Part shown: positions 9,200 to 54,000 of the stretch, piece after piece
Numbering within the stretch: the first letter of the stretch is position 1
Layout of the letters: each line of letters opens with the position of its first letter
Origin: Polytrichum commune
Lineage: Eukaryota; Streptophyta; Polytrichopsida; Polytrichales; Polytrichaceae
Direction: 5' to 3'
Length of the DNA stretch: 64,000 nt
Assembly: GCA_950295325.1 (NCBI GenBank)
Contig: OX485803.1
Location: 56,311,554-56,375,553, forward strand
Notes under the pieces: generated by a model
Database searches by the model: none
What the model was told of the DNA's origin: nothing
Seen by the model: only the letters and a program-made list of their open reading frames with translations
Position numbers and translations under genes: made by a program

Positions 9200-9518
9200 T
9201 AGAGTTATCCTTTAATTCAAAGGAGTTTGGTAGGGAGTTTCTTACAAAACCATCCATGTTTGGCAAGCTTGAGGTGCATGCGTCGGAGGTCGTGTGAAGG
9301 TTTGAACCAATAACATTCTATATCGGTTCATTGAGGGTCAAACTCATTTTAGCAACGCATGCGGTGCTAAAATGAGTTTGACCCTCAATGAACCGATATA
9401 GATGTTATTGGTTCAAACCTCCACACGGCCTCCGACACATGCACCTCAAGCTTGCCAAACATGGAAGGTTTTGTAAGAAACTCCCTACCAAACTCATTTG
9501 AATTAAAGGATAACTCTA
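9200..9518. repeat. Long-hairpin (foldback) MITE
   Basis: Two arms of about 155 bp are near-perfect reverse complements: 9200-9354 begins TAGAGTTATCCTTTAATTC, and 9365-9518 ends with its complement. A roughly 10-bp loop (ACGCATGCGG) separates them. A transcript would fold into one long hairpin. The target-site duplication is unclear. High arm identity implies a fairly recent insertion or gene conversion between arms. Confidence 0.85.
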
Positions 9519-22338: not shown

Positions 22339-22348
22339 AACGATGCCC
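22339..22348. other. Left target-site duplication of the composite element
   Basis: AACGATGCCC here is repeated exactly at 34188-34197, just outside the opposite terminus. A 9-11-bp duplication is typical of Mutator-like elements. Confidence 0.75.
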
Positions 22349-22349
22349 T

Positions 22350-22407
22350 GGGAGTGCTATCTTATGAGTGGTGAGCGATGAGCGGTAACTTATGAGCAGT
22401 GAGGAAG
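22350..22407 (+). repeat. Left terminal inverted repeat and subterminal heptamers
   Basis: GGGAGTGCTATCTTATGAG is followed by consecutive TGAGCRR-type heptamers (TGAGCGA, TGAGCGG and, after a TAACTTA break, TGAGCAG). The order mirrors the right end. Such arrays are typical transposase-binding sites. Confidence 0.8.
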
Positions 22408-25400
22408 ATGAAAATTTTGGTAATAGGACCACCAATATCCTATAACCGTGGAATTGTGGCCTTAAAAATGATGATTTTAGGGTTTAGTAATAAGAGGGTT
22501 GAGAAGGATAAACAACATGAAGTCCAAAAATTTATTCATCAGTAGTAGCACTAGACATGAAACTATCTTTTGCCTCGTCATCTATATATATTCGAGCACC
22601 TTTGCATTGCGAATTGATTTTGGAACTATAGCAAGATTCTTCATTTGGATCCGAATCTTCGAGATTCAACATTGCAATTGCAACATTCTCGGCATATGAT
22701 GGGAGACGCGGGCTACGGCTTGGACTTCGTAGGAATTGTCTATATGCCCAAAACGGGAGACATGTCCTCTTTCCAATCGTATTCCTGAAATCAAATCGAT
22801 GAAACATGTAAATAATGTGAAGAAATAAAAATGAACCAATGAATTGAATGAAACGAATGAATTGAATAAAAATTTATTGTATTAAAACTTACTCACACTC
22901 AAATTCAAGCATCTCCTCATCCGAGAGGTCATCATCTTCTTTTGTGAGATCTTGTATATTCTCCTTAGATGACCCCTCTTTCAAAACGTTTTCCAAAAGC
23001 GGTTTCAATATGTGCTCAAATATGTCATTATCACCCTCAAATGCAAGAAGATGTCTGCCACATGCGCGTGTTGCTAGGATAGAAGCTCCAGTGGAACATG
23101 TCAAATCAACAACGCGTCCATTCGACGGTGTAAACAATTCAATAAGATCTTGAAAAAAACGCGGCGATTTTTTATATGGCCCCCTCCAAGGTCTTCCCGA
23201 TTTTTGAAGAAGCATGTTTTTTTCATCCACAAAATTGAAAAGCAAGTTTTTGCTTTTCAATCCAGTGCCAAAAAAAGTGGAGTTTGGTTGTCTCGTGAAT
23301 TTTGTGGTAGTAAAATTCCATACCAAGACATGAGCCATAAATGCCGGAGTCTACAAAAAAATGTAAATTATGTTAAAACTATATAGAATGCAAATAACAC
23401 CAAAATAATTAAATAAAAACAATTGTGATGTGTTATACTTACGGTGTAGGTTGGAGACTCCGGATCCTTGAACACCATGTACGAATTGAGGTAAATAAAA
23501 GTCCTAAGAACTTTCATGTTGCCGTTGTGTAAGGTTGAATTCAAAACCTTCTTGGTTTGCATATCGATAGCAGAAAATACTATGAGGACGCCATCATCAG
23601 ACAAGATGGACTTGCACAAGGACATTGTTGCAACCATCCAGTTCTTGTCATATTTATTCCAAAGAGGAATTTCAGCAGGTCTATTGGAGAGGTTGAAGTC
23701 AAGACCGTCGGGAAATTGGAGAAAAACAAGGTCAACGGCAAAGGGAGTCGGACTTCCCATGACATGAAATTCGCGATTGTCATTGAACTGAAATACCACA
23801 ACATATCACAATATAAGACACAAAATAAAACCCAAATGAAAGTAAGAACATTAGAGAAAATACCAAAACAATAATTATACTTACGTTTTCAATAAATTCC
23901 CGCCATTGGATCCACTTAGGAGGGCCTACATCCACCCCTTCAGACTTGTTCTTGACAGCAGTAGATCAAGCAAATGAGAGCGTGAGAAAGTTCTTCAGTA
24001 TGAATAACTCTTTTCTTAAAATATCCGTTGGCGCACGATGAATAGCGTCATAGGTACTAGAGTAATGAAATTCCAATACATCGCATCTAGACTTTGAACT
24101 TTCGCCTCCAAGTGGATTCTTATCCAAATCATTGGAAAGAACAAGCAATTCTTCATGTTGTGAAATCTCCGATTGATCTTGTATTTTGGTTTCAGGAACA
24201 TGTTTCCTCTTACGATGTTTTGTCTCTTTTGGTTCTGGCTCTCTAAGTTTAAGCTGCACAATTTGTGCTTGCAAAATTGCAGTATCACGAGGATCCACAT
24301 TTTTAGCATCATTTATCTGACAGATTGTTTTCTCACTTCACGGACATACATCCTTAGGACAATCAAAATACCAACCACAATCCTCATAGTGTGGGAGCGA
24401 CGAATCCAAACAAATCTCAGTAGTGAACATGCATGAATCTCCTGCACCAGTGTCATGCCAATTTGGGAAAAAACGAGGTTCCCCTATAACGCATTTATGT
24501 GGAATCAAAACATATCGAAAATACCTACACACAAAAATATTGTAAGTCAAATATTTCATGACAATTTGACAAATGGAATCAAAAAATCAAAAAATAATAA
24601 GATTAGGTTGTACCTGTATAATACACGTTTCATAGCAAGATCAATATTAGGTTGCTCATCCCAACCGTTGTGTTTTTTAACTTTTCCGCTTTGGAATTCA
24701 CGATAGAATATTGAATTGAAAGCCGCAAACTTCCAGGTTTGGATATACTCGGAGAGAGTAGATACATCTGCAGGCAACTGAAGAGGAGATGAAAGAATAC
24801 TTTGAAGCTCTTCGATAGCCTTTTTTTCCAACTGTACCCAATATGTAGATTTTGATAACCAATCATCAAGTGCAGAATCAGAGAGGGGCGATTTCGGAAA
24901 ATGCAATGTATCTTTGTCAAATCTATTGCCATTTCAAAGCTTGAGCCATCCAACTTTGACTTCTGCATCCACATTACTCACAGCAACACGATGAAGTTTC
25001 TCTTATAGCATTTCAGGCACCGAAAATGAACCCCAATGGCGCTTAACTTCTTCAAGGAAAGCAGAGATAAGGTTGATGTCGGCAATCGCTAGTTGTTTCA
25101 TAAAACTAGAAGATAACATTGCACGTTTTTTGTTGACAGCTGCAAACATTGCTTTTGAAACTCCGTCTGATGTCCGTTCAAGAGGATGAGTTTCATTATA
25201 CTGGTTGAGAGCAATATCGTTAGCCTCAGCAAGTTCTTGCTGAAAAATCAAACAAAAGTCAATATTTATAAGTACATATAGATGTAATGTAAAATGAAGA
25301 TGAATAAACATAAGGCACATATTAGCAATGGTAGAAGAACTTACACTGTACATGTAATCCAAAAAAATTGGTCGTCTCAAAGAATACCAAGTTTCGACGG

Positions 25401-26569
25401 ACTTCTCCTCACATCGTTTATAACTCTTTGGATCCAGTTGTTTTCTGAAGGAAGTCAAAGGCATGGTGCCAATACTTTGCATCCGATATAAAGTATGCAC
25501 CAAATTGGTGGATACGTGAGAATTATCGGTTGACATGAAAAAAACATTAAATTGATTAGATTTATGATGATATAATTTGGAAAAAAAAATATAAACTAGA
25601 AATAAGTGTAAAAAATATGTAAGAACATTACTTGTTGATGTCATGTATAGCAGTCAACAAACTTGAAATGTCGTCAGGCTCGGACGCCAAAATGATAAAA
25701 TTCACAAAGACATGACGTTCATAATCTTCGGTATATACGCGGTCAATATAATTTCTCCAAGCAAAAAATCTGTGATTTCCATCCCATATAAAAAACATCT
25801 TGTTCTTGTATGACGTCAATGACAAATCTGTATCCAATTGAGATTCAAACAGGGCATTGGCTTGAGCCCAATTTGGGCTCCAAGATGCGCGAACCTCATC
25901 ATCCACGAATTGAAAGTTTCCCTTAGAATCGGTGGCCGATATATAAAACACACGGTCACCATCACGATAACCATTGAAAAAATCAGCCTCCAATTTAGTA
26001 ATGTCACCCTTCAAAGCAGGACGCACAATCGGCATATGAACCATGCGACATAAGGGTACACGCAAGCGAGCATTAGGTCCAGCACGGATTGAGGAAATTG
26101 TGGAAGTGGAATTGACCTTTCGTTTGTTCGTAAGCTCCCACACTTTCTCTTGATAAGTTTTATTGTCACTATCATTCTCTTCATCCGAGTCAAAATCATC
26201 GAGGGATTCATTTATTTTTTTCTTTTTCTTATTATGAAGATTCAACGATATGTCCTGATGATGATGAACTTGTTGAGATGGACGATCTTAAATTGAATGC
26301 ATTATGGAATCATCATCAGTAGAAATAGGAGTCGTTCTCTCCAAATCCATTGATTGGTCCTAAAACAAATGAAATAAGTTTCATAAATATTTCAAAACCA
26401 GTAGCAACACATTAGCAATAACATTCCAAAAACAACAGCAATAGCAACAACAATAGCAACAGAATACCACGAACACAGGGAAAAATGACAAAAATTATTC
26501 TAGACAATGCCATTTGCACCTTTAAATATTGTACGATTAGGGTGGCCGTTCAACCCAAAACTACAAGGG

Positions 26570-26599
26570 CAGACCCTGTGCGTTAACGCACAGGGTCTG
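26570..26599. repeat. Perfect 30-bp palindrome of the GTGCGTTAACGCAC type
   Basis: Perfect dyad centred on GTTAAC, with arms CAGACCCTGTGCGTT. The same core recurs as a 32-bp perfect palindrome at 27371-27402, in damaged copies at 27436-27505, and in the 64-bp-period array at 27945-28525. Confidence 0.95.
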
Positions 26600-26636
26600 T
26601 GTGTCCAACTACAGGTCTACCAAAGTTGGGTGCGAC

Positions 26637-27139
26637 GTTTGGTTCGAACGACCCAAACTATCCACGCGGTTTCGATCGAGCGACCTAAACCGCCTACAAC
26701 CAGTTTGGGTCGACCGACCCGAACTGTGAGCATGGTTTGGGTCGAACGACCCAAACCATGCTTACAGTTCGGGTCGGTCGACCCAAACCATGCTCACAGT
26801 TTGGGTCGGTCTACCCAAACTAGGCAAACAGTTTGGGTCGTTCGACCCAAACTATGAAGACAGTTTGGGTCGTTCGACCCAAACCATGCTCACAGTTTGG
26901 ATCGGTCGACCCAAACCATGCTCACAGTTTGGCTCGGTCGACCCAAACTAGGCAAACAGTTTGGGTCGTTCAACCCAAACCATGCTCACAGTTCGGGTCG
27001 GTCGACCCAAACCATGCTCAGAGTTTGGGCGGTCGACCTAAACTAGGCACACAGTTTGGGTCGTTCGACCCAAACTATGCAGACAGTTTGGGTTGGTCGA
27101 CCCAAACTATGCTCACAGTTTAGATCGACCGACCCAAAC
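26637..27139. repeat. Array of 16 palindromes, 32-bp period
   Basis: Sixteen 22-bp dyads of the form GTTTGGGTCG-NN-CGACCCAAAC are spaced by 10-bp linkers, giving a 32-bp period (first at 26637, last at 27118). The linkers belong to a few recurring types (CATGCTCACA, TAGGCAAACA, TATGCAGACA). The dyads carry compensating changes: GTTCGGGTCG at 26767 faces CGACCCGAAC at 26715. Units 3-5 (26703-26788) together form an 86-bp near-perfect palindrome. CpG-rich against an AT-rich background. The open frames through it (VWVVRPK-like) are by-products. Confidence 0.95.
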
Positions 27140-27370
27140 TGTCCGCAATTTACGCCTGATTATGCGCAATTACCCAGTCATCACGAAAGTGCAAACAAAT
27201 TTTGTATTGCACCTGTAGATGAGAGAGCTTGCAGCGACGAGCTCAGGTCCGACAGATGAGAGAAAAAAGACTGAATGCTTTGGGGGTGTGGCAATTCATA
27301 CTACTCGTCCCTGCTGCCATATTTAGTGTGGCTCTTCGTGGCCCCGCATAGCCGCTAGAAAATTGCCAGC

Positions 27371-27505
27371 GTAGACCCTGTGCGTTAACGCACAGGGTCT
27401 ACTTGCCTAACTTTGGGAAGCCTCTAGCTAGGCAAGTAGACCCTGTGCGTTAACGCATACACCCTGTGCGTTAGTGCATAGACCTTGTGCATTAACGCAC
27501 ATAGC
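27371..27505. repeat. Perfect 32-bp palindrome plus inverted and decayed copies
   Basis: A perfect palindrome at 27371-27402 (arms GTAGACCCTGTGCGTT) is followed by ACTTGCCTA. An inverted TAGGCAAGTAGACCC copy at about 27429-27457 and two decayed CCTTGTGCATTAACGCAC-like copies follow. Confidence 0.85.
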
Positions 27506-27944
27506 CGAGACATGAATTTGAAAAAAAAAAAAAAAAATTAATTTTTTTTAGAAGTCTGAAATTGGTAGATTTGCCAAAACTTGTAAAATCTGAAAAAAAT
27601 GCTAATGGGGTTACAAAAAAAAAACAATATGCTATATTATCTAAATATCCGTAGCTACAAATTCTTCTCATATTTTGTTTTGGTTTGAAATCATTTTCTT
27701 TTCTAATTCTTCTATCTATTTCCTTCTTTTGGGCCACCTCGTAAATTTTGGGTTTCGGGGCAAAAAAAAAAAATGCTATTTTGTGTCATTTTCTAGCTCC
27801 TATAACGTATTGCATGAATACTTGAATAGACATATTTCTCATTTCTTGCATTCTAACCCCGTTTTCAATAGGTTTTTTTGCTCCTACACTCTGCACATTG
27901 ATTTAAATTCATACAATAGATATTTGTTTTACTTTTAGGCTCTC

Positions 27945-28525
27945 CTAGTCGTTTTACCTCCCAACTTTGGCCTTCCTAAGTTGCGCTTACAAATCCTGTG
28001 CGTTAACGCACATGGTTTATCCTCCCAACTTTGGTCTTCCTAAGTTGCTCTTACAAACTCTGTGCGTTATTGCACAGGGTTTCTCCTCCCAACTTTTTGC
28101 CTCCTAAGTTGCTCTTACAAACCCTGTGCGTTATCGCACAGGGTTTCTCCTCCCAATTGTTTGCCTCCTAAGTTGCTCTTACAAACCCTGTGCGTTATCG
28201 CACAGGGTTTTTCCTCCCAATTGTTTGCCTCCTAAGTTGCTCTTACAAACCCAGTGCGTTAACGCACAGGGTTTCTCCTCCCAACTTTTTGCCTCCTAAG
28301 TTGATCTTACAAACCCAGTGCGTTAACGCACAGGATTTCTCCTCCCAACTTTTTGCCTCCTAAGTTGCTCTTACAAACCCTGTGCGGTAACGCACAGGGT
28401 TTTTCCTCTCAATTTTTTGCCTCCTATGTTGCTCTTATAAACCCTATGCGTTAACGGACAACATTTGTAAGAGCAACTTAGGAGGCAAAAAGTTGGGAGG
28501 AGAAACCGTGTGCGTTCTCGTCTTG
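27945..28525. repeat. Array of 8 palindromes, 64-bp period
   Basis: 28-bp dyads (AAACCCTGTGCGTT and its complement, centred on GTTAAC or TTATCG) start at 27991, 28055, 28119, 28183, 28247, 28311, 28375 and 28439, exactly 64 bp apart. A conserved 36-bp linker containing CTCCTCCCAACTTTTTGCC and TAAGTTGCTCTTAC separates them. A reverse-oriented unit follows at about 28466-28520. The period is exactly twice that of the 32-bp array, although the sequences differ. Confidence 0.95.
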
Positions 28526-28987
28526 ACTTCTAGCCTTCCTAAATTTCTGTTATATACAATGTGCATTAACGTATAGGGTTTCTCCTCTCCAATTTATAAC
28601 CTCTATAAATTGCTACTACATGACATGTGAATGAACGTACAAGGTTCTCTGTCCTAACTTACAACTTATGAACTATCAAATTATGTGAACGTTGAACGGA
28701 CTTACCTTTTTGTTTGTCGTCTTCTTTGAACCCGTCTTCAATTCGGACTCTGATATACGATCGTCTACATCTTTTTTGCTCTTTGCACCTTCATCATCCT
28801 CCACCGCATGAAAATCCAGTGTCTTCACAGTTTCTTCTACCGTACTCAACAAGTTTCTTTTCCCTTCCTTATTTGCATTCTTCTTTCCGACATTCAATCT
28901 GAACCTCTTTTTCTCGGAAGTGAAATACAAAGTTTTCCTACGTCTTCTCTTCGGCCTCACGGGTGTTCTCTCTACATTGTCCACCAT

Positions 28988-29509
28988 CGTTGGTGTCTAT
29001 GATATGTTTTCTATCAGGTACTATCATTTATTCTTTCAATGTATCTATCTCACAAAATCCGGCGTATATTACGATCACATGTTGTAATTGGCGTTCAATG
29101 AACGAGATATTTCGACGCGTTTGTCATTATGTGTTTATTTTTTGTATATCCGCCAAAATTTTCTGACACCTACTTTGTTCTATTCATAATGATCAATAAT
29201 TTATTTTTCCAACCAATTTTAATTCTTTCTACATCTACGTCAGTCCACACATATATATTTTAAATTTCTACCAATACTTTTAGTATTTGACGCCATTTTG
29301 TGTATATCTTGCTCGTAAATATTCTCTGATTATTATTGTGCTTTGTCCACTTCTGTATTATTAGATGTTATGTATCACATGCTTTCATCTCCATCCATTA
29401 TTGTATCACACGTTTTCATTTCCATTTATTTCCTTACACAATTCTATACAAAAGCAACATTCACCCCATATTTTTGTAATGTGTTGTTCATATGTTCTTT
29501 TGATTTTCT
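28988..29509. promoter_or_regulatory. Divergent intergenic region between the two element genes
   Basis: This 522-bp AT-rich gap lies between the two divergent start codons (28987 minus, 29510 plus), so it should hold both promoters. No clear TATA box or repeat stands out. Assigned by position only. Confidence 0.45.
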
Positions 29510-32500
29510 ATGGCTACCATTAGAGCTCATGGATCTTTTGTTCCCTTCATCTTGCCACTCCAAGATGATGGTCATGTGAGTGTTTCAGAGGATTTACTTA
29601 GTTTGAGATTCAACCTCCAGATAGGAACTATGTATTTAGAGCATGAGATGTACTCTGCAGATGGAGAGGTGTATGAAACGATTTTGGTTCCAAAAAATAG
29701 AACTGATGTTGGTTTTATGTGGATCTTAGGACCTGGTTCATTTAGGGTGATAGGACTTTCTGAGTCTCATATGCAAGCTTCAACTGTCATTTTGACAAAT
29801 GAATCCGGTACATCCACAGTTCAAATTCCCTCTATCGCACCTGTTAAGGTGGAACCCCCTTGATGATAGTGTGTTTGTGCTATCAGATTCAGAAGATGAC
29901 ATTTGTGCATTTGTTGATCTTTAAAACACATCGCCATTTCCATTTAGAAGTGTTCATTCTACTCCTTTCCAACTTCCTATACATGTAGCCAAATCCCCTT
30001 GCGGTCTTATGTAAAAGAAGGTGGTTCCCCAAATCTCACCTTCTCAACGTCCTCCACTACACCCTTCACCTTCATTTACAGGGTTGACTATGGTTGATGC
30101 CTTGAAACTGACAAAGTCAAGAAAAAGATCAAAGTCCGATCTTGCATTCATTGATTTTGACAGTATAGATGTTCGTGAAGTCAAGTACTTACCATGTTCT
30201 TTTAATGGTGATGTTTTGTTTCTCTTGCCTCCTGTGGCACTCAAAGCTTCAAGTACGTATGGTCGTTCAATGGACAGCATGGACAAGATGTGCGACGGTC
30301 ACCCTTGGTGCACCACCAAAACCACGAATATCCAAAATGACTTTGGACTGTCCTTCCGGCGCTCTACTTGTGCTGGTCATCTCCAATGTCATAATGACTA
30401 CTGTGATTACATGAATCGCAATGGGGGCCTCCGGAACAACACTGAATGGGCCGGTTCAACTTCTATCCCATTTGTTGTGGGTGTTGTTCCCCCTACTAAG
30501 TCCACTGTCGAGTGTAAGGTATGTCGTTCCACACCTGTGTGCATTGCTTTGTGTAATGCTCGAATCATATACATCCATTCCACATCCGTTGGAATGTCCA
30601 GGGCTTGCATTCATCTTGGTGTACATGATCACCCTGTCGCCATGGCACATGCCGTGAATCATTGGACATGGCATACCAATGCGTTGCAAATGAAGTATTG
30701 AAAACACCCACAACAAAAAATTCAGCCATAGTTATGGCGGCGAGCAAACAATTCTTGGCCGATTACCTTCTCAAATCTCCCGCAAATGTCGAAGGCCATC
30801 ACTTGGTTGGTTCATCCCTAGAGGTCGTCATGGACAAATTTAACACTCTTGCGTCTCCAAATTGTCGTAACTTTGTATCTGGATCAAAGCGTTTTTTGCG
30901 TAGTGAAATGGGAACTATAGATAGTATTATGGCGCTCAAAGACCACTCTGCTTTCAAATTCGTCCATGGTAGTCGGTTCCCAGGGCAGTTAAAGGACAAA
31001 GTGTTTGTTTTCAAGATGTCTGTAGACCTTCCAGGTAGTGGTGTGGAGCTTGTGAAGAGGATGCAAGTCGGTGGGGATATGGAGAATTCATGGATTATGT
31101 TTGACCATGTCAAACGTTTGAAGGATTGGACGACCATGGCTTGCCATGTGTACGACAGTCGATACTGTAAAGTGTTGACTATTGCGTGTTGTGACATGCA
31201 ATCTGAAGATGGCGTAGCACAAATTCTCTTTTGGGAAAATTTGAATGCTGTTATGGCAGAAAATGATGTACCAAACGTAAACTTCAAAGGGTTATAGCTG
31301 ATAGTGCTCAAGCTAATTGGAATGTGGTGAGGGCGATTTACGGGGATGGTGATCCAAGTCTACCCATGGTTGCACGTGAGCGTACATGTCTTTTCCATTG
31401 GTCCGCAAGCTTGAATAAGGTGACCCAAAAGTATATCAAACCATCCTTGCAATTTCAACACAAACAAATATGCAAGGATTACAAAGACGCGAAAACAATG
31501 GACGACGCTGAGACCAAGTACCATGTGATTCGTTCTTGGTGGTTGTCATCTAGAGCTACCTCCGAAGAAGGCATCCTTGGCCTTTCAGAGTAGTTGGGAT
31601 TTTGGCACTTTCGTTACAGATAATGGGGTGGCCATATCCTACTTGTAAGTACATATCAAACTTCATTACTCAATGTAATATATCTTATGTTTTTCTTATC
31701 TTTGTCTTTCTGTGTTCTTCATAGGATATGACAATAGAAGAGCGTGCGGGAATGCCAACATGCAACCTTGCAGAGACTGTATACAACAAACAACAAGCAG
31801 TTTGGGTCGTTCGACCCAAACGTGGCAACCATTTTGGGTCGAATGACCCAAACCTAGATATATAATCTATCTTATGTTTGTCTTATCCTTGTATTTGTAT
31901 GTTGTTCATAGGATATGACAATAGAAGAGCGTGCCGAAATGCCAACATGCAACTTTGCAGAGACTGTACACAACAAATGGCTCCAACAGTCCGGCAACAA
32001 GATGACTTGTTTATATGAAGCTACAGTGGACGACATGATCCGTGCCTTCATGCAAATTGCAAATTACCGGACATGGTTGAAAGGGGGGTATGATGGTAAA
32101 GGTCCTGATTCGGCCTCCTTGAAACTCAAAGCAGCTGCCAGGTGTGGAGATCCAAAAATGTTGGCTGATGCCATGAAGTCTTACCTAGGGGCAGAAGACG
32201 TCAACACTAGAGATTGTGCATTGGAAGGGTCAGAACTCTTTGGTTCCACCAAACGCAAACTCAACCTACCACCGGGTGCTGATTGTGACTCTCATCGACC
32301 CGACAAAGTGAACTATTCCATTCCTCGTCCCAACACTCGAGGAACTCGTCAACGCATAGAGGAATCGTTGAGTTCTGCAATTCATGATGTGGCTCATACT
32401 ACATCCGTGTTAGAGACTGATTGTCTTGCTTCTAAGTGGCACATTGCAAGATTGCCACCCAACTCAGCCAAACGTTGTTGGGCACTGTAGGCCATTACAG

Positions 32501-33280
32501 GGACTATGTGCAATGCGAAAGTCGGGACTGGGAAACATGGCACACCTACTCCAACATACAAAGGGCTCAGGAAGGAATTTTGCTCTCCCAACAATGTGGA
32601 GTATGAATTTTGGTTTTGTTTTGACGACATCAAACGTTGTGTGAGTGGCAGTAAGAAGAAATATATGTTGGATTGGCCTATAGTACCCAACACGTGGCCA
32701 GTGAAGATAGGTACCAATCTATTGAGAGAGGAGGTTTTGGCACTTGAAGATGTTGGATTTCAACTACAGCAGAGGGAGGCATTGTCTCCTCGTCATAGGC
32801 TTTCAACAATTGCAACTCTTCCCATCCCTCGCTCACATTTTTCTATACCACCAAACCCGGACGCCCACCCTACATTCAGATTTGGGAAGACAGTGCATCG
32901 TAATCCAACAGCACCTCTAGCGGATCACAAAAACAAATGGGAGAGCGCCGGACTCATGGAAGGTTACTATGTGGTTGGGGTCACTGCCATTCCATATCCG
33001 GGCTTTGGAGTGATAATCAACATTGTCTCCAAGCAAGATATCACCTACCATGTCACAATTGGCGATATCCCGCATTGCACATGTCTAGATTTCACGAAAA
33101 TGTCCTCTCATACATTGGGAAAAAAAAAGAAAATAGGTGTATTGTAAACATCTTTATTATGTGTTTAGATTTTTGTGCAAGGTGGATTACGAGAGTGATA
33201 AGTTCATTCATGCACCTACATATACCTATAATGAGGTCATGCGACTACTTGAACTTGCTGGTATTGTAGAATGTGAGTAG
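29510..33280 (+). pseudogene. MULE-like transposase with SWIM zinc finger, disrupted
   Basis: ATG 29510 opens a 117-codon frame. A shift in the C run near 29856 leads to DSVFVLSDSEDD (29868-29900), a SUMO-interaction-type motif, then KSRKRSKSD (basic), then a Cys/His-rich block (CDGHPWC, CHNDYC, CKVC, ACIHLGVHDHPV; about 30290-30640). A one-base loss near 30641 shifts to the catalytic domain: YDSRYCKVLTIACC (first D near 31154), IADSAQANWNVVRAIY (second D at 31300, after another shift near 31292) and RTCLFHW, the C..H motif of MULEs. A GTAAGT donor at 31645 and an ATAG acceptor (31911) join it to DMTIEERAEMPTC. The end is a SWIM finger, HCTCLDF (33074) then VYCKH (33137), split by a shift in an A run. 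Stops: 29922, 30012, 31591, 31621 and 32488. Clearly non-functional here. Confidence 0.8.
31681..31977 (+). repeat. 110-bp duplication flanking two 32-bp palindrome units
   Basis: The intron 3' end and first exon codons are present twice (31681-31790 and 31868-31977, offset 187 bp) and are highly similar. The 77 bp between them holds two palindromes of the intron-1 array type (31800-31821 and 31832-31853), exactly 32 bp apart. The upstream copy carries its own acceptor and DMTIEERAG codons but runs into the insert, so the downstream copy is the original exon. Confidence 0.85.
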
Positions 33281-33977
33281 TATTGCAAGTGCTCTATTAA
33301 GCAACATATATTTGAATGTCAATAAATGACATGTTTTGGTTTGGATTATTATAATAAAAATTAGCAGTGGATTGAAAGTATTTCAAATGATTCAGTAACT
33401 TCATTTTTATTTTGACTGCGACCCAACCATGTGTGATTTGATTGATTCACACGGATAAATAATAACACGTTTTCTGAAAATAAAAAATAATTAAGAAGAT
33501 TCTACGCACATCCGCGTAGTAACGTCTTCTTGGTATCCGCCTATAGATTAATCCTGCTTTATCACTAGCTCAATTTGGGATAGCACCAGTCAATGTAACC
33601 AACCGGATTCGAACCCGGGTTGATCCAGACCTAATACCAGTCTCTTACACAACTCGCATCCACAGGCGGATGTCTCAAAACCTAATAGCTACCTACATAT
33701 TCATTATTTCTAATATCTAATTTTCTTTCTTTTGTAGATTCTGGGCCTTTATTCAACCCGTGAGCAGTTTGAGTGGCTCACAATTATGGCACCGACATAT
33801 ATGTATAACGAGGTTATGCACTTACTTGAATTTGCTGGTGTTGTAGAATGTGAGTAGTTGTACAAGTGCTAGTTGTAGCTACATGTATAAGGATGTCAAT
33901 AAATGACAAGTATTGGTTTGAATTATTATAATAAAAATCAGCAATGGATTGAAAGTGTTCTAAATGATCCATGGAGA
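33208..33977 (+). repeat. Duplicated 3' end of the transposase gene
   Basis: The last codons and 3' flank occur twice: APTYTYNEVMRLLELAGIVECE-stop at 33211-33280, and APTYMYNEVMHLLEFAGVVECE-stop near 33787-33859. Similar flanks containing GTCAATAAATGACA and ATTATAATAAAAAT follow each. The second copy is preceded by an open frame (ILGLYSTREQFEWL) behind a T-rich TTTTGTAG acceptor, so it could be an alternative last exon. About 390 bp lie between the copies. Confidence 0.75.
33490..33672 (-). repeat. Hairpin and tRNA-like B-box insert
   Basis: The minus strand contains GGGTTCGAATCCGGTTG, a near-consensus Pol III B box in a small stem. ATCCGCCT inverted repeats enclose it (33535 and 33672 ends). 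Next to it, 33494-33530 folds as AAGAAG..CTACGC/GCGTAG..CTTCTT. I cannot fold a full tRNA cloverleaf. A tRNA-derived SINE or other Pol III-type insertion is possible. Confidence 0.4.
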
Positions 33978-34099
33978 TAGGGCCCTTTCACTTGTGCTTC
34001 ATTTAAAATATTGGCAATTTACAATTGAAAATATGCAATTAATTTGTCAAAAATTTGGTTGTAAACCCTAAACCCGTGTGTCTTTACTAAATTTGGATT

Positions 34100-34187
34100 C
34101 ATTGCTCATATGTTACTGCTCATTGCTCATGTGTTACTGCTCACCGCTCACCGCTCACTGCTCATCGCTCATAAGATAGCTTCCCTC
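34100..34187 (-). repeat. Right terminal inverted repeat and subterminal heptamers
   Basis: Read on the minus strand: GGGAAGCTATCTTATGAG, then five consecutive TGAGCRR heptamers, then further ones spaced by TAACACA and TAACATA (about eight in all). This matches the left end and is followed by the second AACGATGCCC at 34188-34197. Confidence 0.8.
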
Positions 34188-34197
34188 AACGATGCCC

Positions 34198-39595: not shown

Positions 39596-40115
39596 AGGGC
39601 CACTCCACACAGGAGACTGAGGGCCCATGACCATTGCACTCTGAGCACTCTCATTGGTGGAAAAGGTGGAGCCGGTCCAAGTTCGCTACTTCACACTACG
39701 CTAGCTTGAGGGACCAATGGAGTAAGTGACTCCGACATGGATGTCAAGTCTACGTGGAGTCCGTCTTACATGGCATCAAATGGATCATGTTTCATGGTCA
39801 CTTGGAGTATTTTCAGAATCCGCCTCTTGGAGGTAGGCCTAACACAAAACCGGGAGACCATGACACTTTGAAATTTCACAACCCTTGATTTATTATATTT
39901 TATCATGTATGAGGACTCTACATGAATACATCGTGAGAAATTCCTTGAAACATCATTTGGTTGAGGGCTTGGTCACATGTAACTTCACTGTACATTTGAT
40001 GGCCCATGATCGCACTATATGATTTTGGAAGTGTCTTGGGACGGCCTTTGGACACTTCTTTTGGGCTCTCACAATTTCATGGTCACGGCTCTTGGTTCGT
40101 GTGTGGAGTGGCCCT
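39596..40115. mobile_element. MITE, GGGCCACTTC family, full copy 1
   Basis: Ends AGGGCCACTCCACACAGGAG and the complement of AGGGCCACTCCACACACGAA form terminal inverted repeats, with TA on both sides (39594-39595 and 40116-40117). The interior shares GTGACCATTGCACT, GGTGGAGCCGGTCCAAGTTC, CATGGCATCAAATGGATCAT and TCTTGGGACGGCCTTTGGAC with 47635-48138. 520 bp, non-coding. Confidence 0.8.
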
Positions 40116-40839
40116 TAGTGTATATACCCAATATGATACATTGTTGATGGCCTAACTTCAATAATTTTCTCTTAGTATAGGCCTTTTTTAGAGTATGTAC
40201 TCCGCTAAACTTGGCTTGGGGTTCACAAAATTTTGTGTAAACTCATCCCTAGATGACGGGGCTCAAGTAAAAGCAAGTTTCCTACAAGGGTGAGGGCCGA
40301 TTTTTTCCAACTGGAATCCACTAGAATAATTTGGGTTCTTTAATGCCATTTTTGGACTTAAAGGATGTTAAAATAGTTTTTAGCACTATAAAATAGTTCG
40401 TTGTGTTTTCACCTTGCTAATGGACGAGTTTACTAGACACCACAAACCTAACCCTAGGTAGGCTTTGTGATGTCTACATGAAGACTTGCTATTTTGTTCG
40501 TTTTTCATGTTCCTCATTTTTACCAATTAGATTTACATAATGAAATTTGTTGTGCATTAGCATATCTATGATGAAGCATCAACAAAGATTAGATTGAAAA
40601 TCGAGCTTCACATTATTTAGTTATGCTTACTGAAAGTGTACGTATGTTGATTATTTGACCGAATGAATGATTATTCCCACTTGTGTTTAAGATTGAATGT
40701 GGAGTAACTTGGGTGTACAAAGACTCTCTCACCATAAGAAGCACCCCTAGTCGGCCCTTAAATTGGCCTTTCGCACAATAGGAAATCCATACCGACACAA
40801 ACAACATGCTCAAGAAAGGTAAGCGGGTCTTAAACGGAC
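40116..40839. other. Intergenic DNA, no gene seen
   Basis: No coding or repeat structure that I can support. Confidence 0.4.
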
Positions 40840-42920: not shown

Positions 42921-44249
42921 CAAGGTCTTTAAAACTATTTATGGTGTCACATCGACCAAAAAGGGTAACCTCCAGGCTGCATACTATTTCTGGACTTGTG
43001 TATGCTGGATGAATGAGAGATACGCTCATATATGATAGTTCTCTCTCTTTCTCTCTAATTCCTGGCCCATGAGAGTGATAATGAATCACTCAGGCAGTCA
43101 CAGCAGCAGAGTAGATAGATAGAACTTCATGATGCTGGATGATGGCACCAGGAATTGAAGAAGCCACCACTGTTGCCAGAAATTAATTACTGCAACTCCC
43201 TTCATTCAAGTTTGAGCCCTCTCACTGCACCAGCCCACAGGCGGGCACTCAACTATTAACCTACACCCAGAAGTAAAGTACACGCTTGCATTTGTCATGT
43301 TTAATCATTTTTTTTCTTTTTCCCCTTCACATCCATCTTCCCCAAACTCATCGCCTTGTATTGATTTTGCCAAGTGTGTGTCCATTGTAATTTAAGGTAT
43401 GTGGGTGATATTTGGTTTGTTTCTGATGTTCTCCAACTTCTACCGATGAGATTTACACAACTCGGGTTGCAGTACCGAATCTCTGATGCAACATATGCAA
43501 AAACCGGATTGAACATCAGACCTCCCCCAAATCAGTTATGCTTATCGGAAGTGCATGTTTGTTGATTTCTGAACTAGATACATAGGTCCTCCCAGTTGTG
43601 TTCATTGTTGAGTGTAGAGTTGTTATTAATATTTGACGATGTAGTCCAATCTCATTTAAACATGTGTCTTTATGATGTTTGTTTTTGGATCCTAACCGAA
43701 CCACATGCCAATCAAATAAAGGGGTCCAATCAAGAAAACAAGCCACTTAAGACCCACCTACCTTAGTACAGTATCTTGTAAGGTGTGAGTTCTTGGACCC
43801 ACACTTACACAGATTGTACTCAAATGTAGGTGTGAATTATTGGCATGTTCACCTCACTTGGTTTGAACCCATGTGAGTCTACCAAAAATGTTGCTTCGTA
43901 TACTTTTATGTTTTTGGCAATGAAGACTTCTAAGGTAAGTGGTCCTAATTCAGTCAATTATCTTAATAAAACATTTAATCTTGAGTGGTGAATGGTAAGG
44001 TGTTGAAGTTTAAATTTTGGATAGGAAAAACTTAGGGAAACACTCAAGGATGACTTGAAAGGTGATTTTTGTACCATCTAGGTGTCTTAGATATGTTTAA
44101 TTAGGACAGTCATAGGTTGATTTCAAGTTAGTTATGCTTTAAAGTTGACTTTTCATTTTATTTGTGCAAGGGGATTGGAAATTTCTCAACCGCAGTTGAT
44201 GCGTCCGTGACAATCATTCAATCCCACATTATTAACCAAGGCAATAGTA
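42921..44249. other. Intergenic DNA with dispersed-repeat fragments
   Basis: Near 43620-43740 and 43935-44010 lie diverged copies of the dispersed repeats described at 11400 and 8545. No supported gene. Confidence 0.4.
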
Positions 44250-44505
44250 TCACTATATTCGCTAATTGGAGACTTTTTCATGATTTGGAGACTAATCAAG
44301 AACTTCAAGTCTCATATCATGTTTAGTGCATGTTTTGATTATGATATAGATACTTATTATATTTAGACATATATATACTCCTCATGCATGAATATGTAGA
44401 AAGTTCGTTACCAATGTTCCCCACGTTCACCATATTGCATCCCAGACTATGAGTAAAGTTGATTTTGAGACTTTCCAAAGTCTCCAATTAACAAATATTA
44501 TGATT
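44250..44505 (+). mobile_element. MITE, CACTATATTCG family, copy 1
   Basis: TCACTATATTCGCTAATTGG with an inverted counterpart ending in CCAATTAACAAATATTATGA. The interior (ATGATATAGATACTTATTAT, CATGCATGAATATGTAGAAA) matches 50813-51066 in the opposite orientation. About 256 bp. Confidence 0.8.
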
Positions 44506-47634: not shown

Positions 47635-48138
47635 CGGCCACTTCACACATGAGACCGAGAGCCCGTGACCATTGCACTTCAAGCACTCTCATTGGTGGGA
47701 AAGGCGGAGCCGGTCCAAGTTCGCCGCTTCACACTACGCATGAGGGACCAACAGAGCATGTGAATGCAAGATGGATGTAAAGTCTACATGGATTCCTACA
47801 TGGCATCAAATGGATCATAGTTCATGGTCACTTGGACTATGTTCAAAAACCGTCTCTTGGAGATAAACCTAACACAAAATTGGGAGACCATAGCACTCCG
47901 AACGGTTCACAACCATTGATTTATTCTATTTTATCATGTGTGAGGACCCGCATGAATAGAAATTCATTGATATAGCATTTGGTTGAGGGCCCGGTAACAT
48001 ATGACTTCGCACTAAGCTTGAGGGTCCGTGACCACACTACATGAGTTTGGAGGTGTCTTGGGATAGCCTTTGGACGCTTTCTTTTGGGCTCTCACACTTT
48101 CATGGTCACGGCTCCTGGCTCCTGTGTGAAGTGGCCCC
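47635..48138. mobile_element. MITE, GGGCCACTTC family, full copy 2
   Basis: CGGCCACTTCACACATGAGA and the complement of GGGGCCACTTCACACAGGAG, with TA on both sides (47633-47634 and 48139-48140). The interior is collinear with 39596-40115. 504 bp. Confidence 0.8.
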
Positions 48139-48140
48139 TA

Positions 48141-49842
48141 GTCCAGTGGCATGTGATTGGCCATCATCGTTTTTTGCTAACCTGGCCCAGAAGGTGAGCT
48201 GAACTAAAAACTCGCCAACAGTTAACAAAGTATTTGCTCCAACTGTCTAGGTCCGCCTCTCGGGAAAGCTCGCAACGGCCCTCGGAGGCTCAACTTCAAT
48301 TTATTAGCTCAAATTCGACAACACAACCATGTACTTCAAATCGCAACTGGGCATCCGACATCATTCACCGAACTAGCTTAAGACGAGGGAGCTGTGATGC
48401 CATGGACTGGAGGCAGCAATATGTAACCAGGCTGTGCCGGAGAGAGGAAGGCAATCTTCGGAGGTTGGAGTTAACTTGAGGGCAGTGAGGAGAACTCTAC
48501 GAAAGCAGTTCATTTGTCGCCTGCACGCACGCAGTGATGGCGAATCCAGGGCCCATGTGATCGTTCAGGGGAGCACCGATCCCTCCTGCATGCTGCACAC
48601 ACACAAGCACTCCGCCTCAAGGTTAGTGACATTCTGTACTTGAATGTGAATGCATGAGCTCTCGTAGAATCCGATTTGCGGTTCCGAAACATACCCAGCA
48701 TCTCCTAAAGCAATCTCCACCTTCCAGGCTTGTGCCTACCTTACATCCCAACTAAAACCAGCCAGTGTACCGGAGCTTGCATGATTACTCCAGGTAAGCA
48801 ACTTCGCTCCCAAAATTCAAGTACAAGCGTGGGGTTACACTCTGAAATCCAAGCTCTCATTTTCAACAGCTTCAATTCTTCGTATACATTTAGTCGCAGG
48901 CAGGCAGGCAGGGTGAAGGGTAGTGTACATAGTTGAAGCCATTGCAGGCCAGTTCCCAGAACCGAGGTCAGAACTGCGTTTTCAAGTTCAGCTAAAGTAA
49001 TGTTGTGCTGGGGGCTGCCAGAAGCCCACAAGAGGCGCTGTTGCCGAAGCCTTGAGCCCACAAACCTCTTTGCCCATCACCATGCTCTGCCCCTGCCCTG
49101 TTGGTAGGCTGTGGAAACTCACCCTTTGGTTGTAAACAAATCTTAGGGTTCATGGTCACTACATTGGTTTACATTTTCCGCTTTTAATGCGATAATTCCC
49201 TTTTCGTGCATATTTGGATTTTCTATGAATTTTTGGCTTCAAGTTGCTGTAGTTCGCCCAATTGTTTATTACGAGGAAAAAGTGGTTCCTAGTAACATAA
49301 TACCTAGAACAAGTAGTATGCGGGTGCCATCTCTGGCACATACAATCGCTGATAATTCACACAATACTTTGAAATCATGTTGTACTAAAGTAAGGCAGTC
49401 ACCGGTTGCCCATGAAATCTCTTGCCACTATGCAAGTTTTATAGCTCAACAAGTGTTCTGTATGATAGTCGAAACCGTAAAAGTAACTAATACAAACATT
49501 TCGGAACACAACCTCATGGGGGAGCCGTGAGCCAAGTTTAACAAAGTGCATAAAATCCTCACATTGACCGGAATAGCAAGTCTATATCTTGTGTTGCAAC
49601 GTTGGATATGTGGCCGCAATTGATCGGAGAGACGAATGCCCAATGCTTTGGTCATACGAAACAAAGTAAATCCAACGGTCATCTTCAAATTCCTATATGA
49701 CAAATCACGAAAATCAAATCGTTGACCTAGGTTTGACCTAAAATCCTAGGTTAGGGTCATTGGAAATACAATTTTTGATCTATGGGAAGGAATGCAACGC
49801 AATAATGGTTGCATGATTGATGTACATCGTCAATCTCCATAC
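48141..49842. other. GC-richer intergenic block, no recognised gene
   Basis: 48180-49130 is clearly richer in G+C than its surroundings and has overlapping short frames on both strands plus a GGCAGGCAGGCAGG repeat. No domain or exon chain is recognisable. It could be a decayed gene, a non-coding transcript or an old GC-rich repeat. Confidence 0.35.
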
Positions 49843-50097: not shown

Positions 50098-50812
50098 TAT
50101 AGGGGCATCAAGGGAAGACGGCGCTATGCCAAGCAATTGAATGTTGTTGAACACAATGTCTTGGACATTCATAAGTATAATCAACAATGTTGAGACACAT
50201 GCTAATTAACAATACATCAAGGATTCAAGGTCCTCTGAACATGCCATAACTACAAATGTAAAAAATCCAAAAGCACAAAGTTAGACTCTTTTTTACAATC
50301 ACATAACACAGAAACCCTAAAATACCTACAGAGCATCCAAACACAAGGACATTTAAAGTATTGACATTTCACAATGATGGGTGGCGGCCTTAAGCATTGT
50401 GATTATGTCACAGAAGGCTGAAGGACATGATTGCAACAACATTTCTTCTTAAAATTGCATAACAAATATTTGTGGGAATGTATGTTAATTTGAGGATCTG
50501 CAACTTTTTGATTGCCGTGTTTCATTTAGATTTACCACGCTCCTAGTTGTGACATTTTGGATAGACATAATGTCAAAATTTATGAGAGAAGATTTTGGGC
50601 CAGTGCAGGGCCCTCTGCAAAATTCTCTATGTTAGGGGGGCACTTAATAAAATTTTAAAAACCAGTTGGCCTTGGCTTGAGGCATTGGGCTAAGGGCTGG
50701 TAACCAAGTCCTCCCATAAGCCCTGGAATCCTTAAAGCCACAGTGCGAACATACGTCTACCCAGCTGGAGTTGTAGTGGAGAAGAGAGGATGTAATTATA
50801 GAAGAGCAGAAA
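50098..50812. other. Intergenic DNA, no gene seen
   Basis: No coding or repeat structure recognised. Confidence 0.4.
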
Positions 50813-51066
50813 TCACTATATTCGCTAATTGGAAACTTTGGAAAATCTCAAAATAAACTTACCTCATAGTTTGGGATGCAATATTGTGAACGTGGGGAAC
50901 ATTGGTAATGAACTTTCTACATATTCATGCATGAGGAGTATATATATTTCTAAATATAATAAGTATCTATATCATAATCAAAACAGGCACTAAACACGAT
51001 ATCGGACTTGAAGTCCTTGATTAGTCTCCAAATCATGAAAAAGTCTCCAATTAACGAATATAGTGA
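50813..51066 (-). mobile_element. MITE, CACTATATTCG family, copy 3
   Basis: TCACTATATTCGCTAATTGG and CCAATTAACGAATATAGTGA bound 254 bp. In reverse orientation it is collinear with 44250-44505 (TTTCTACATATTCATGCATG, ATAATAAGTATCTATATCAT). Confidence 0.85.
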
Positions 51067-54000
51067 TAGAAACGTGAATTTCACACTGAGACGCCAAACA
51101 TTGAGAATTTGAGTCATGAGGGTACAAGCGCGTATGCAGAGAATTCCACTGGAGCATTGTCTGAACGTTATTCAGAGTTTTCAATGAGGGTTATCACAAT
51201 CGCAAACTCCGACAATGTGGCCACAAATTCAGGCTGTGTGTGTTGTTAGAGTTTTGTGATGCCCTAGGCTGGTGTACTGTAGGGAATTTCGACTATGAGT
51301 GCCTTGAAGGCGTCTGGGTTCTTTGAAAATTGACGTCTTTGCCTCGCAAACTATAGAATCTTTGGTTGCTCCTTAACACGGCTCACTGAATGCGAGAAGT
51401 TGCATCCATCACAAGGGTTGTGCAAAACCTAGAATTGAAATTCTCAAAGGTCTCGGGTTGAAGATGCGTTCCTGGCTATGATCGATCCTTCTGAGTGTGA
51501 GTGATACTTGCTTCAATGAGCGCAGGCACGGATGAGTTCACAAGGGCGGAGGCAGTCGGGAAAGCATACCCGATGACCATGCTCTTGGTTTTGGTGGCGA
51601 GAGAAGAGTGTGAGCTCGACTTGCAGGGTTTAAGGTAGGCCAACGTTTGAAGAAGGTAAGAAGTAAATTTGTAGGAGGTGGTTGTCTCATCATCAGTGGC
51701 ACCAATCTATCTGAAAGCCGATCTCATGTTAAGAAGATCGTAAACCTTAAACCAACGGGCGGGATATCTGGTGATGGGAGGATGTCTACTCTGAAGCTCC
51801 TTGCTGTGTGAACAAGGGGTCTTTTGCTTCTACCGGTTTTTTGTTAAAAGGAGTGAGGTATACAATATAAAGTGAGGTGGGGAGGAGGGTATTAGCCTCT
51901 TTTTCCTTTTTGGGTGGGGCCACCATCTTTTAGGAACTTTTAAGATGAGGATCAATCTTGTTGTAGATGTATTACGCTTGCTTTAATTCACTAGAATAGA
52001 GGAATAAAGAGGGTGTTGATGCAAATGAGGGAGGACTCATCTTAAAGCATAAAGTTGTAATTTTTATTTTTGGGTGTTCTCCGTTAGTATGCAGGTTCAA
52101 GCATATCGTAGACAACATTTACGACATCGCAACATGAGTGATCTTGTTGCCTCTCAATGGAATCCAATGAGTTTGAACTTGAAAAGTCCAGGATGCCAAA
52201 AGGGTTATGTTACTAAGCGAATTTATATAAGTGATTGCTGCTAAGCACTTTCCAGGAAAGAAGTAACTTAGGGTGGGTTGACATTGGGGTCCAAGACCAA
52301 GAAACTCCCAAATTGAGTGTTGAGAGCGACATGTAAACCCAGGGAGTTTACATTATGGTTCGCGTTCAAGGTATGAAAATTTGAAGTGGTGCTAACGTGA
52401 CATCACTTTCTCACCAATTATAGTCAATCTCTGGAACACTCTTAGTTCAAGAAGCCAGTCTTTTAGCTTAGGTCTAATCTTGAGTTCAAAAATGAAGTCC
52501 ATTAAGGGGTGTTTTTGAACCCAAATAATTTTCTTGGGCCCAAACCTTGATGTAAATCCACCCTTGTTGATAATTAAAAACAACCACACATTGATAAGAT
52601 TGTTTCGGAGTTCATTAACACAACCGAAGGACATACGGTGTCAAGAGAAGTTAGAACATGTCATGCAAATTCAGCCACATTTTACTTGAGCACATTTTAC
52701 TTGAGCTCAATGAAATGAAATCGATTTTGAAGTCCGGGAAGCCAAGAAACAAATTACACTAAAAATACAACAGGATGGTTGCAATGGGTAATGGTGGAAC
52801 TTGGAAGTGCCCCTAGTAACTTAGCGGCTTATGATACTGTCACTTTTTATAAGAAAGTGATCTGCTCAATTCATCACAAGAAGAATCTTTTTTCTGAGGA
52901 ATGGTCTTGCTTTTGATTGCAATTGCTTTCTCCATTTAGTAAGACTGAGTGTCCATCATGCGCAAAGGCTGTTGCTATATCCAACCTCACTCAAATCTTC
53001 CGCACCTAGCTTTTCCTTGACCTGCTTCATTATTTGACACATTATGGCAGGCTTTTTGTTCCAGATTTTCAGCAGGGACTGCAAGTTCTAGAGAATTTTT
53101 TCCCTCCAAGGCATTCCTTGAATGTCACAGGGCCATGAAAACATACCAGTATATAGTGATCAACTCGGTGGCACCTATGGTGTTTCATCCTTAAAGGACC
53201 AAGGGTCTCAATGCATGTATGATCATATATTACATAATGTCTACAAGTTCTCATAAAGTCCAAATTTCAGGTTTCGTATAGTTATGGATTTGGAACATCA
53301 TTATTCTATGCATCATCTTCTGTCAAGGAAAAAATGAAAATGTATTCAAATGTGGCATTAATGATCAAAAGACGTAGTATGTAGTTGCATTCAAAGAAAT
53401 CCAACTTTGTCTTTCAAATCAATTATACTAATTACTTTGAAAAATGCATCTAGAAAATTGAGTTCATTTTAGATTGGATCGTTGTGAATATCAATCACTA
53501 AAAATGAAAATGTATAGCTCAAAAACATGTTTTGTGCACAAACGAGGCCCAGATTGAGCCTCTTATGTTTCAAGGTTAACCCTTAAAAGATCACGTCATG
53601 ATTGTTTGAGTTCCATCTCAAATTGTAAGTGGTTAGCGTTCAATGCACATGTACTTCACTATCTCATAGTTTATGAATATATGTGGGTCGAAGTTATTGG
53701 GGGTGGAGGGATATTTATCTTTCTTTCTCTCTTTTCCTAATACCCTTTTTTCTACTCCTACTTTGCCTCATTGTCTTGCACCCTTTGGTAGTTTGAACTT
53801 ATATATTTCCATTCAAACTTAACTCTATCTTAATTCCAAAAATACCTCTTCTGTGTTGCTTAAAATCATCATGTGTGTGGTGTTTTAGGGTACCCTCTAT
53901 GAACATGCTGAGTAATATAAGGCAACCTAGTAACATAAGGTATGGGTTCCCTTATGTTACTAAGGATGTTCACAAAGGGTGGAATATAATAATGACAAGG

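Follow-up and report, generated by a model that had tools for sequence, protein, structure and literature searches.

The DNA transposon Sola1-1_Ec32 of Ectocarpus carries, opposite its transposase gene, an accessory gene for a 1,104-amino-acid (aa) protein that joins a ParB domain to an N4/N6 DNA methyltransferase (PMC12477816). In that account, Sola1 and cases from green and red algae, which are attributed there to Iyer 2011 and Petroll 2025, are grouped into what may be a new class of accessory proteins, and the Sola1 protein is proposed to modify the element's own DNA (PMC12477816). Here, we describe an element of similar design in a 64,000-nucleotide stretch of Polytrichum commune DNA (assembly GCA_950295325.1, contig OX485803.1, forward-strand positions 56,311,554 to 56,375,553), hereafter the window. 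Like Sola1-1_Ec32, it is a DNA transposon that encodes a large ParB-like and methylase-like protein (about 1,073 aa) opposite the transposase; unlike that element, which is of the Sola1 type, it has a 10-bp target-site duplication, and the catalytic motif of its methylase domain is altered. Palindromic arrays are present here, whereas the available text on Sola1-1_Ec32 names none (PMC12477816). Nor does that text name target sites for the algal ParB-methylase accessory proteins, for which our palindromes provide candidates. The preliminary description of this locus knew of no MULE (Mutator-like element) with a DNA-methyltransferase partner gene; for transposons at large such a gene is not new, as ParB-methylase accessory genes were already reported from algal transposons (PMC12477816). 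A search for a ParB-methylase-type gene in a MULE-type or land-plant element found nothing closer within the set of papers searched. Judged by its predicted architecture, with the ParB half recognized by motif and the Ectocarpus protein compared by its description, the protein fits the proposed accessory class.

Other systems resemble the element in part. VANC removes methylation from its own VANDAL element, where it binds motifs repeated in tandem in the non-coding parts (PMC5735166). The layout of our element is similar, with tandem, lineage-specific repeats, but VANC is another type of protein, the VANC21 motif is a 9-base word rather than a 22-bp palindrome, and VANDAL anti-silencing was measured, whereas we infer such an effect here (PMC5735166). 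MULEs have duplications of 8 to 11 bp, a SWIM-like motif, and an extra antisense gene in common with our element (PMC6446971); they differ in that no MULE domain was detected here and that a short identical core with heptamers stands in place of long repeats. Retrotransposons of Symbiodinium and Klebsormidium likewise carry their own DNA-methyltransferase gene, a C5-cytosine enzyme, but the enzymes and transposon classes are unrelated to ours, and activity was demonstrated for theirs (PMC5890265).

In the Polytrichum element, the bacterial-looking ParB/methylase-type gene and rows of palindromes go together, a pattern suggesting that the element labels or protects its own DNA. Bacterial ParB-parS partition similarly couples a ParB-type domain with arrays of palindromic sites. 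Here, the ParB similarity is at the level of a motif, no ParA was seen, and a partition function is not expected. Fusions of ParB with a methylase are also on record (PMC5512222). We give an even chance to the reading that the ParB-methylase-like protein is a self-targeting, VANC-like accessory protein. It would recognize its element's own palindromes, both those between the genes and those in the transposase intron, and would act there in trans to hold the element open or to label it as self.

The element occupies positions 22349 to 34187 of the window (11,839 bp), with edges set by comparison with other copies:

22339..22348, no strand: left target-site duplication AACGATGCCC, perfect over 10 bp
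22349..22403, plus strand: left terminal repeat, containing the core GCTATCTTATGAG together with degenerate TGAGC heptamers
34103..34187, minus strand: right end, terminal repeat and heptamers, edge GATAGCTTCCCTC
34188..34197, no strand: right target-site duplication AACGATGCCC, perfect over 10 bp

The left edge reads GGGGAGTGC (first base T in the window copy). The terminal inverted repeats, which are common to many copies, consist of an identical 13-bp core (at 22356 and, inverted, at 34168-34180) within 20-bp ends, and imperfect TGAGC-type heptamers fill both ends. A scan for an inverted 13-mer with a flanking 10-bp duplication recovered this pair in the real window, where its remaining hits lie inside other repeats, and found no such pair in 100 Markov shuffles, bearing out the matching ends and perfect duplication on which the preliminary description was built. 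To survey duplications in other copies, right ends were fetched for 20 copies, of which 15 were readable at both ends and 5 were unreadable at one; 14 of the 15 share 9 to 13 bp at their edges (exactly 10 bp in 8), and one shares nothing.

We searched the genome (407.8 Mb, 64 contigs) for further copies. The left end gave 40 scored matches from 285 candidates, namely the window and 39 other places, with 97 to 100% identity over 71 bp. The methylase exon that contains the motif I region gave 151 matches from 1,387 first-look candidates, and the transposase exon gave 150 from 1,623. Removal of 10 second or adjacent rows of the same place from 150 listed methylase rows left 140 places, and 85 of these have a divergent transposase exon 3 to 14 kb away (median, 7,586 bp), compared to a mean of 0.31 under random placement (for which two contig sizes were rounded by hand). 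Only 2 pairs had any other arrangement. The element is thus one unit with two divergent spliced genes, as first described, and many copies carry both genes together with duplications of 9 to 13 bp. The ends are not unique, and the idea of two separate nested elements, or of ends paired by chance, for which we found no support, is ruled out by the shuffles, the 85 divergent pairs against 2, and the duplications in 14 of 15 copies; we assign it a negligible probability. A whole copy on contig C6 is 92 to 94% identical to the window copy over three main pieces and is flanked by a 10-bp duplication, ATCCTACAAG. Collectively, these data show that the element is a worn member of a cut-and-paste DNA transposon family that has a high copy number, a 10-bp duplication, and a MULE-like layout. 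The window copy is broken in both genes, since its methylase-like gene has five premature in-frame stops and its transposase gene is split over frames, with several stops.

The methylase-like gene comprises seven exons with 1,074 codons, including the final stop:

25634..26350, minus strand: exon 1, with the start codon, a single premature stop, and the ParB/Srx-like motif W-D-G-N-H-R-x-x-A-W
25345..25530, minus strand: exon 2, start uncertain
24614..25239, minus strand: exon 3, two premature stops in the window copy
23885..24524, minus strand: exon 4, linker, two premature stops in the window copy
23443..23787, minus strand: exon 5, motif IV region, where DLVFLQFPDG replaces the usual motif of D-P-P-Y type
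22895..23350, minus strand: exon 6, S-adenosylmethionine-binding half, motif X and motif I region, VVDLTCSTG
22532..22783, minus strand: exon 7, C-terminal tail

The start of exon 2 is uncertain because neither the window copy nor the C6 copy has an AG at that point. In the C6 copy, exons 1 to 6 are open, and exon 7 has a 1-base gap close to its end.

The C-terminal part of the protein belongs to the methylase fold family. It matched phrog_67 (E = 2.8e-8) and, under the curated cut-off, PF01555 (E = 3.4e-4 for the window copy and 1.5e-4 for the C6 copy). Alignment with six prokaryotic methylases by hhalign gave 96.9% probability over 61 columns, with 8 shuffles reaching at most 0.3%. Motif IV precedes motifs X and I, which is the order of the beta-class (permuted N4/N6) DNA methyltransferase fold. 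The catalytic motif IV of that class is (D/N/S)-P-P-(Y/F/W). In our alignment, the corresponding columns read D-x-P-Y in all six prokaryotic enzymes and Q-F-P-D in the window protein. QF[PS][DN] occupies this position in all 30 family copies used for this and the selection analysis, three more distant relatives have ADYPDG, ADLPEG, and ADLPEG, and motif I reads STG, not GSG. With motif IV altered in this way, either the chemistry has changed or the protein no longer methylates. The identification as a DNA methyltransferase is supported for the fold family and not supported for a working enzyme.

To assess selection, we compared per-site ratios of nonsynonymous (with stops) to synonymous changes among the 30 copies. 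The ratio is 0.31 for changes present in at least three copies (36:31), 0.86 for those in two copies (45:14), and 0.75 for singletons (200:72; Fisher P = 0.003, shared versus singletons), which shows that the methylase-like protein is under purifying selection. Exon 6 served as the search query, and its copies are therefore selected for similarity; exons 4 and 5 were not part of the query. Exons 4 to 7 are free of stops and frame-breaking indels in 12 of the 30 copies.

The fold, the order of its motifs, the purifying selection, and the Sola1 precedent with its authors' proposal (PMC12477816) would all suit an active methyltransferase that acts on N6 of adenine or N4 of cytosine in the DNA of the element itself. 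We consider this improbable, as the catalytic D and the aromatic residue of motif IV are replaced in all 30 copies of the window family, the aromatic residue is also replaced in the three relatives, and motif I has STG instead of GSG. Because the catalytic motif is altered (Q-F-P-D here and D-x-P-D/E in the relatives), the predicted protein more likely acts by binding than by adenine or cytosine methylation, and S-adenosylmethionine may be bound as a structural cofactor. Self-targeting by a DNA-binding protein of this kind is the reading that we carry forward.

The N-terminal part can be read as ParB/Srx-like from its conserved motif, G-x-H-R..A, which we take to be the ParB/Srx signature; GNHR..AW is invariant in all 7 aligned family sequences. 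Searches with the ParB part against Pfam, NCBIfam, PHROGs, PADLOC, and PDB sequences returned nothing of use, and phages gave no match below E = 3. The methylase part had no match among PDB sequences and only weak ones in phages and plasmids (best E = 0.01). Viral contigs held no relatives of either element protein, no P1, and no P2, the two palindromes of the element described below.

The palindromes lie chiefly between the two genes:

26574..26595, no strand: single P2 palindrome CCCTGTGCGTTAACGCACAGGG, perfect for 30 bp
26637..27139, no strand: P1 array, 16 palindromes GTTTGGGTCGNNCGACCCAAAC with at most 5 mismatches, spacing 31 to 34 bp, mostly 32
27376..27504, no strand: P2 palindromes, one perfect over 32 bp and followed by partial copies
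27994..28463, no strand: P2 array, 8 palindromes with at most 5 mismatches, 64-bp spacing
31800..31853, no strand: two P1 palindromes inside the transposase gene

Apart from these sites, the window contains one P1 site (with two mismatches) and no P2 site. Across 31 P1 units from two copies, divergence per site and unit pair is 0.085 in the arms, 0.546 in the spacer, and 0.663 in the centre; the arms are far less divergent than the rest, and thus the P1 palindrome, not the whole unit, is conserved. Exact matches to the 20-bp P2 core number 490 in the genome, compared to none for the reversed control. For the 50 P2 sites that were listed, a methylase exon is found no more than 6 kb away in 42 cases, no more than 10 kb away in 45, and no more than 25 kb away in all 50.

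We then compared the upstream regions of five transposase relatives (L053 to L057), whose transposases are 91, 76, 52, 54, and 74% alike, respectively (computed over the whole frame for L053 and over the first half only for L055, L056, and L057). A ParB exon is present in all five, in the same layout and 37 to 46% like that of the window family, and three of them (L053, L055, and L057) also yielded a methylase-domain exon. A functionless passenger gene, captured once in the manner of a Pack-MULE, would have a precedent in the host gene fragments that MULEs are known to acquire (PMC6446971), but the recurrence of the ParB exon next to transposases that are 52 to 91% alike and the purifying selection on shared changes make this very improbable.

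L053 represents a sister lineage: its transposase and that of the C6 copy are 91% alike, and its ParB-methylase is divergent. It contains neither P1 nor P2; instead, it has another palindrome, P3 (11 sites with at most 4 mismatches, most of them spaced by 105 bp). Still other palindromes occur in L054. The genome holds 61 exact P3 sites, of which 58 were listed and used for placement. Among the best 100 transposase exons, 75 have a window-type methylase, 11 have a listed P3, none has both, and 14 have neither; among the best 150, the numbers are 85, 12, 0, and 53. There are 26 P3 clusters; a listed transposase exon is close to 12 of them, and no cluster is close to a listed methylase exon of the window type. 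Thus, among the listed copies, the window-type methylase exon and P3 never occur in one element, though the transposases are much alike. In addition, P1 sites lie inside the transposase intron in all 9 window-type copies (1 to 8 sites each) and in none of the 11 P3-type copies. Ten of the latter align around the site of the intronic array (92 to 97% after it and 83 to 86% before it), and the remaining one, L088, aligns only before it. As a separate observation, P2 and P3 have the centre CGTTAACG in common, and their outer arms differ.

A number of points weigh against self-targeting. Palindromes and methylase gene occupy the same half of the element, so that linkage explains much of their association. 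P3-type copies are probably one lineage, and their counts are therefore not independent events; more generally, the tests overstate independence because the copies are related. A ParB-methylase was read in a single P3-type copy, and for 14 of the 26 P3 clusters, no transposase exon in the vicinity was listed. Among the relatives, no methylase-domain exon was found in L054 (where the gene reaches the end of the fetched stretch) or in L056, and a palindromic array of this kind is absent from L055 and L056 and weak in L057. The ParB domain is recognized by its motif, a Pfam search having found no ParB match. P2 arms are barely better conserved than the spacer (0.909 versus 0.887). P1, with 9,231 exact genomic sites, is not private to this transposon family; many listed sites lie in another element type (L058 and L059), and neither element gene was detected in the 10 kb read of each. 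The intronic P1 sites are the best argument against linkage alone.

The abundance of P1, its occurrence in an element type that lacks these genes in the stretches read, and its presence within the transposase gene could also mean that the transposase or a host factor uses the palindromes as its sites, or that they are promoter or structural repeats, and that the methylase-like gene has another task. This reading is unlikely, if a serious contender: a transposase copy that is 91% alike comes without P1 and P2 and with another palindrome and a divergent ParB-methylase, the window-type methylase and P3 never coincide in the listed copies, and intronic P1 tracks the methylase type. Recognition of the palindromes by the ParB-methylase-like protein remains the reading that we prefer. 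A broader proposal, which we make tentatively and rate somewhat below an even chance, is that a self-recognition module of prokaryote-type parts, a ParB/pseudo-methylase protein with element-specific, parS-like palindromic arrays, may have entered a eukaryotic DNA transposon and passed as a unit between related transposons, its protein and palindromes changing in step, which would be a second origin of VANC-like anti-silencing. With many copies, open frames, a selection signal, and candidate sites that follow the protein type, the function of the protein is directly testable.

In L058 (G000:C1:616500-626499) and L059 (G000:C1:2115500-2125499), P1 occurs in many small arrays of varied spacing. 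This element type has large open reading frames of no known family, one of which carries IDGQHSVEAS, a possibly ParB-like motif. Its assignment to ParB is statistically unsupported, as hhalign did not rise above column shuffles and no Pfam or PHROG family matched, and the motif is kept as a lead only.

The transposase gene lies on the plus strand:

29510..31645, plus strand: first exon, with D, D, and C..H motifs recognized by eye; shifted frames and stops in the window copy
31673..31977, plus strand: intron and exon start in partial duplication, the two copies flanking the intronic P1 sites
31912..33277, plus strand: downstream part, with SWIM-like CxC..CxH

In the C6 copy, the first exon forms a 742-aa open frame, and a single stop precedes the SWIM motif in the downstream part. 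The last coding part is duplicated in the window (33212-33394 and 33789-33971, 83% alike, 577 bp apart).

The element had been described as a MULE-like transposon, and the duplication of 8 to 11 bp and the terminal inverted repeats agree with MULE membership; the transposase has no profile match to PF10551. Even the 742-aa frame had no MULE match in Pfam, and when compared by eye, none of 142 listed PF10551 places in the genome coincides with any of the 150 listed transposase places. In hhalign, the transposase scored 15.7 against the MULE profile, below the maximum of 24.2 from 30 shuffles, a lack of a match that does not equal a lack of homology. The C..H and SWIM-like motifs noted earlier are indeed present, but the match to PF04434 (SWIM) falls under the curated cut-off (C6 copy, E = 0.0074, 16.3 bits versus 19.6), with CxC..CxH in one frame. 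Assignment to MULEs by profile is thus unsupported, and membership is unproven from the predicted protein. Because the duplication and ends fit and the transposase profile fails, we call the element MULE-like and do not file it as a MULE.

Additional features were noted in the window. A tRNA-like stretch (GGATTCGAACCCGGG, presumably B-box-like) lies at 33571-33690, inside the element near its right end, and the C6 copy has a comparable stretch when translated. No tRNA gene was called in the window with bacterial settings, including at this place, and Rfam gave no match in the window at gathering scores. The rest of the window outside the element holds no relative of either element protein at E = 0.01. 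The ratio of observed to expected CpG is 0.85 to 0.91 in the half with the methylase gene and arrays (22532-29509), 0.57 in the transposase half (29510-33277), and 0.42 and 0.50 in the flanks; the milder depletion of the methylase half could be explained by base composition and age. Elsewhere, direct repeats of about 520 bp (39598-40119 and 47636-48142, 81% alike, 8 kb apart) probably mark an old long terminal repeat retrotransposon, and a 258-bp inverted repeat (44248-44505 and 50811-51068, 93% complementary, 6.3 kb apart) may belong to a further DNA transposon. Finally, a near-perfect inverted repeat with 117-bp arms 85 bp apart lies at 9200-9518.

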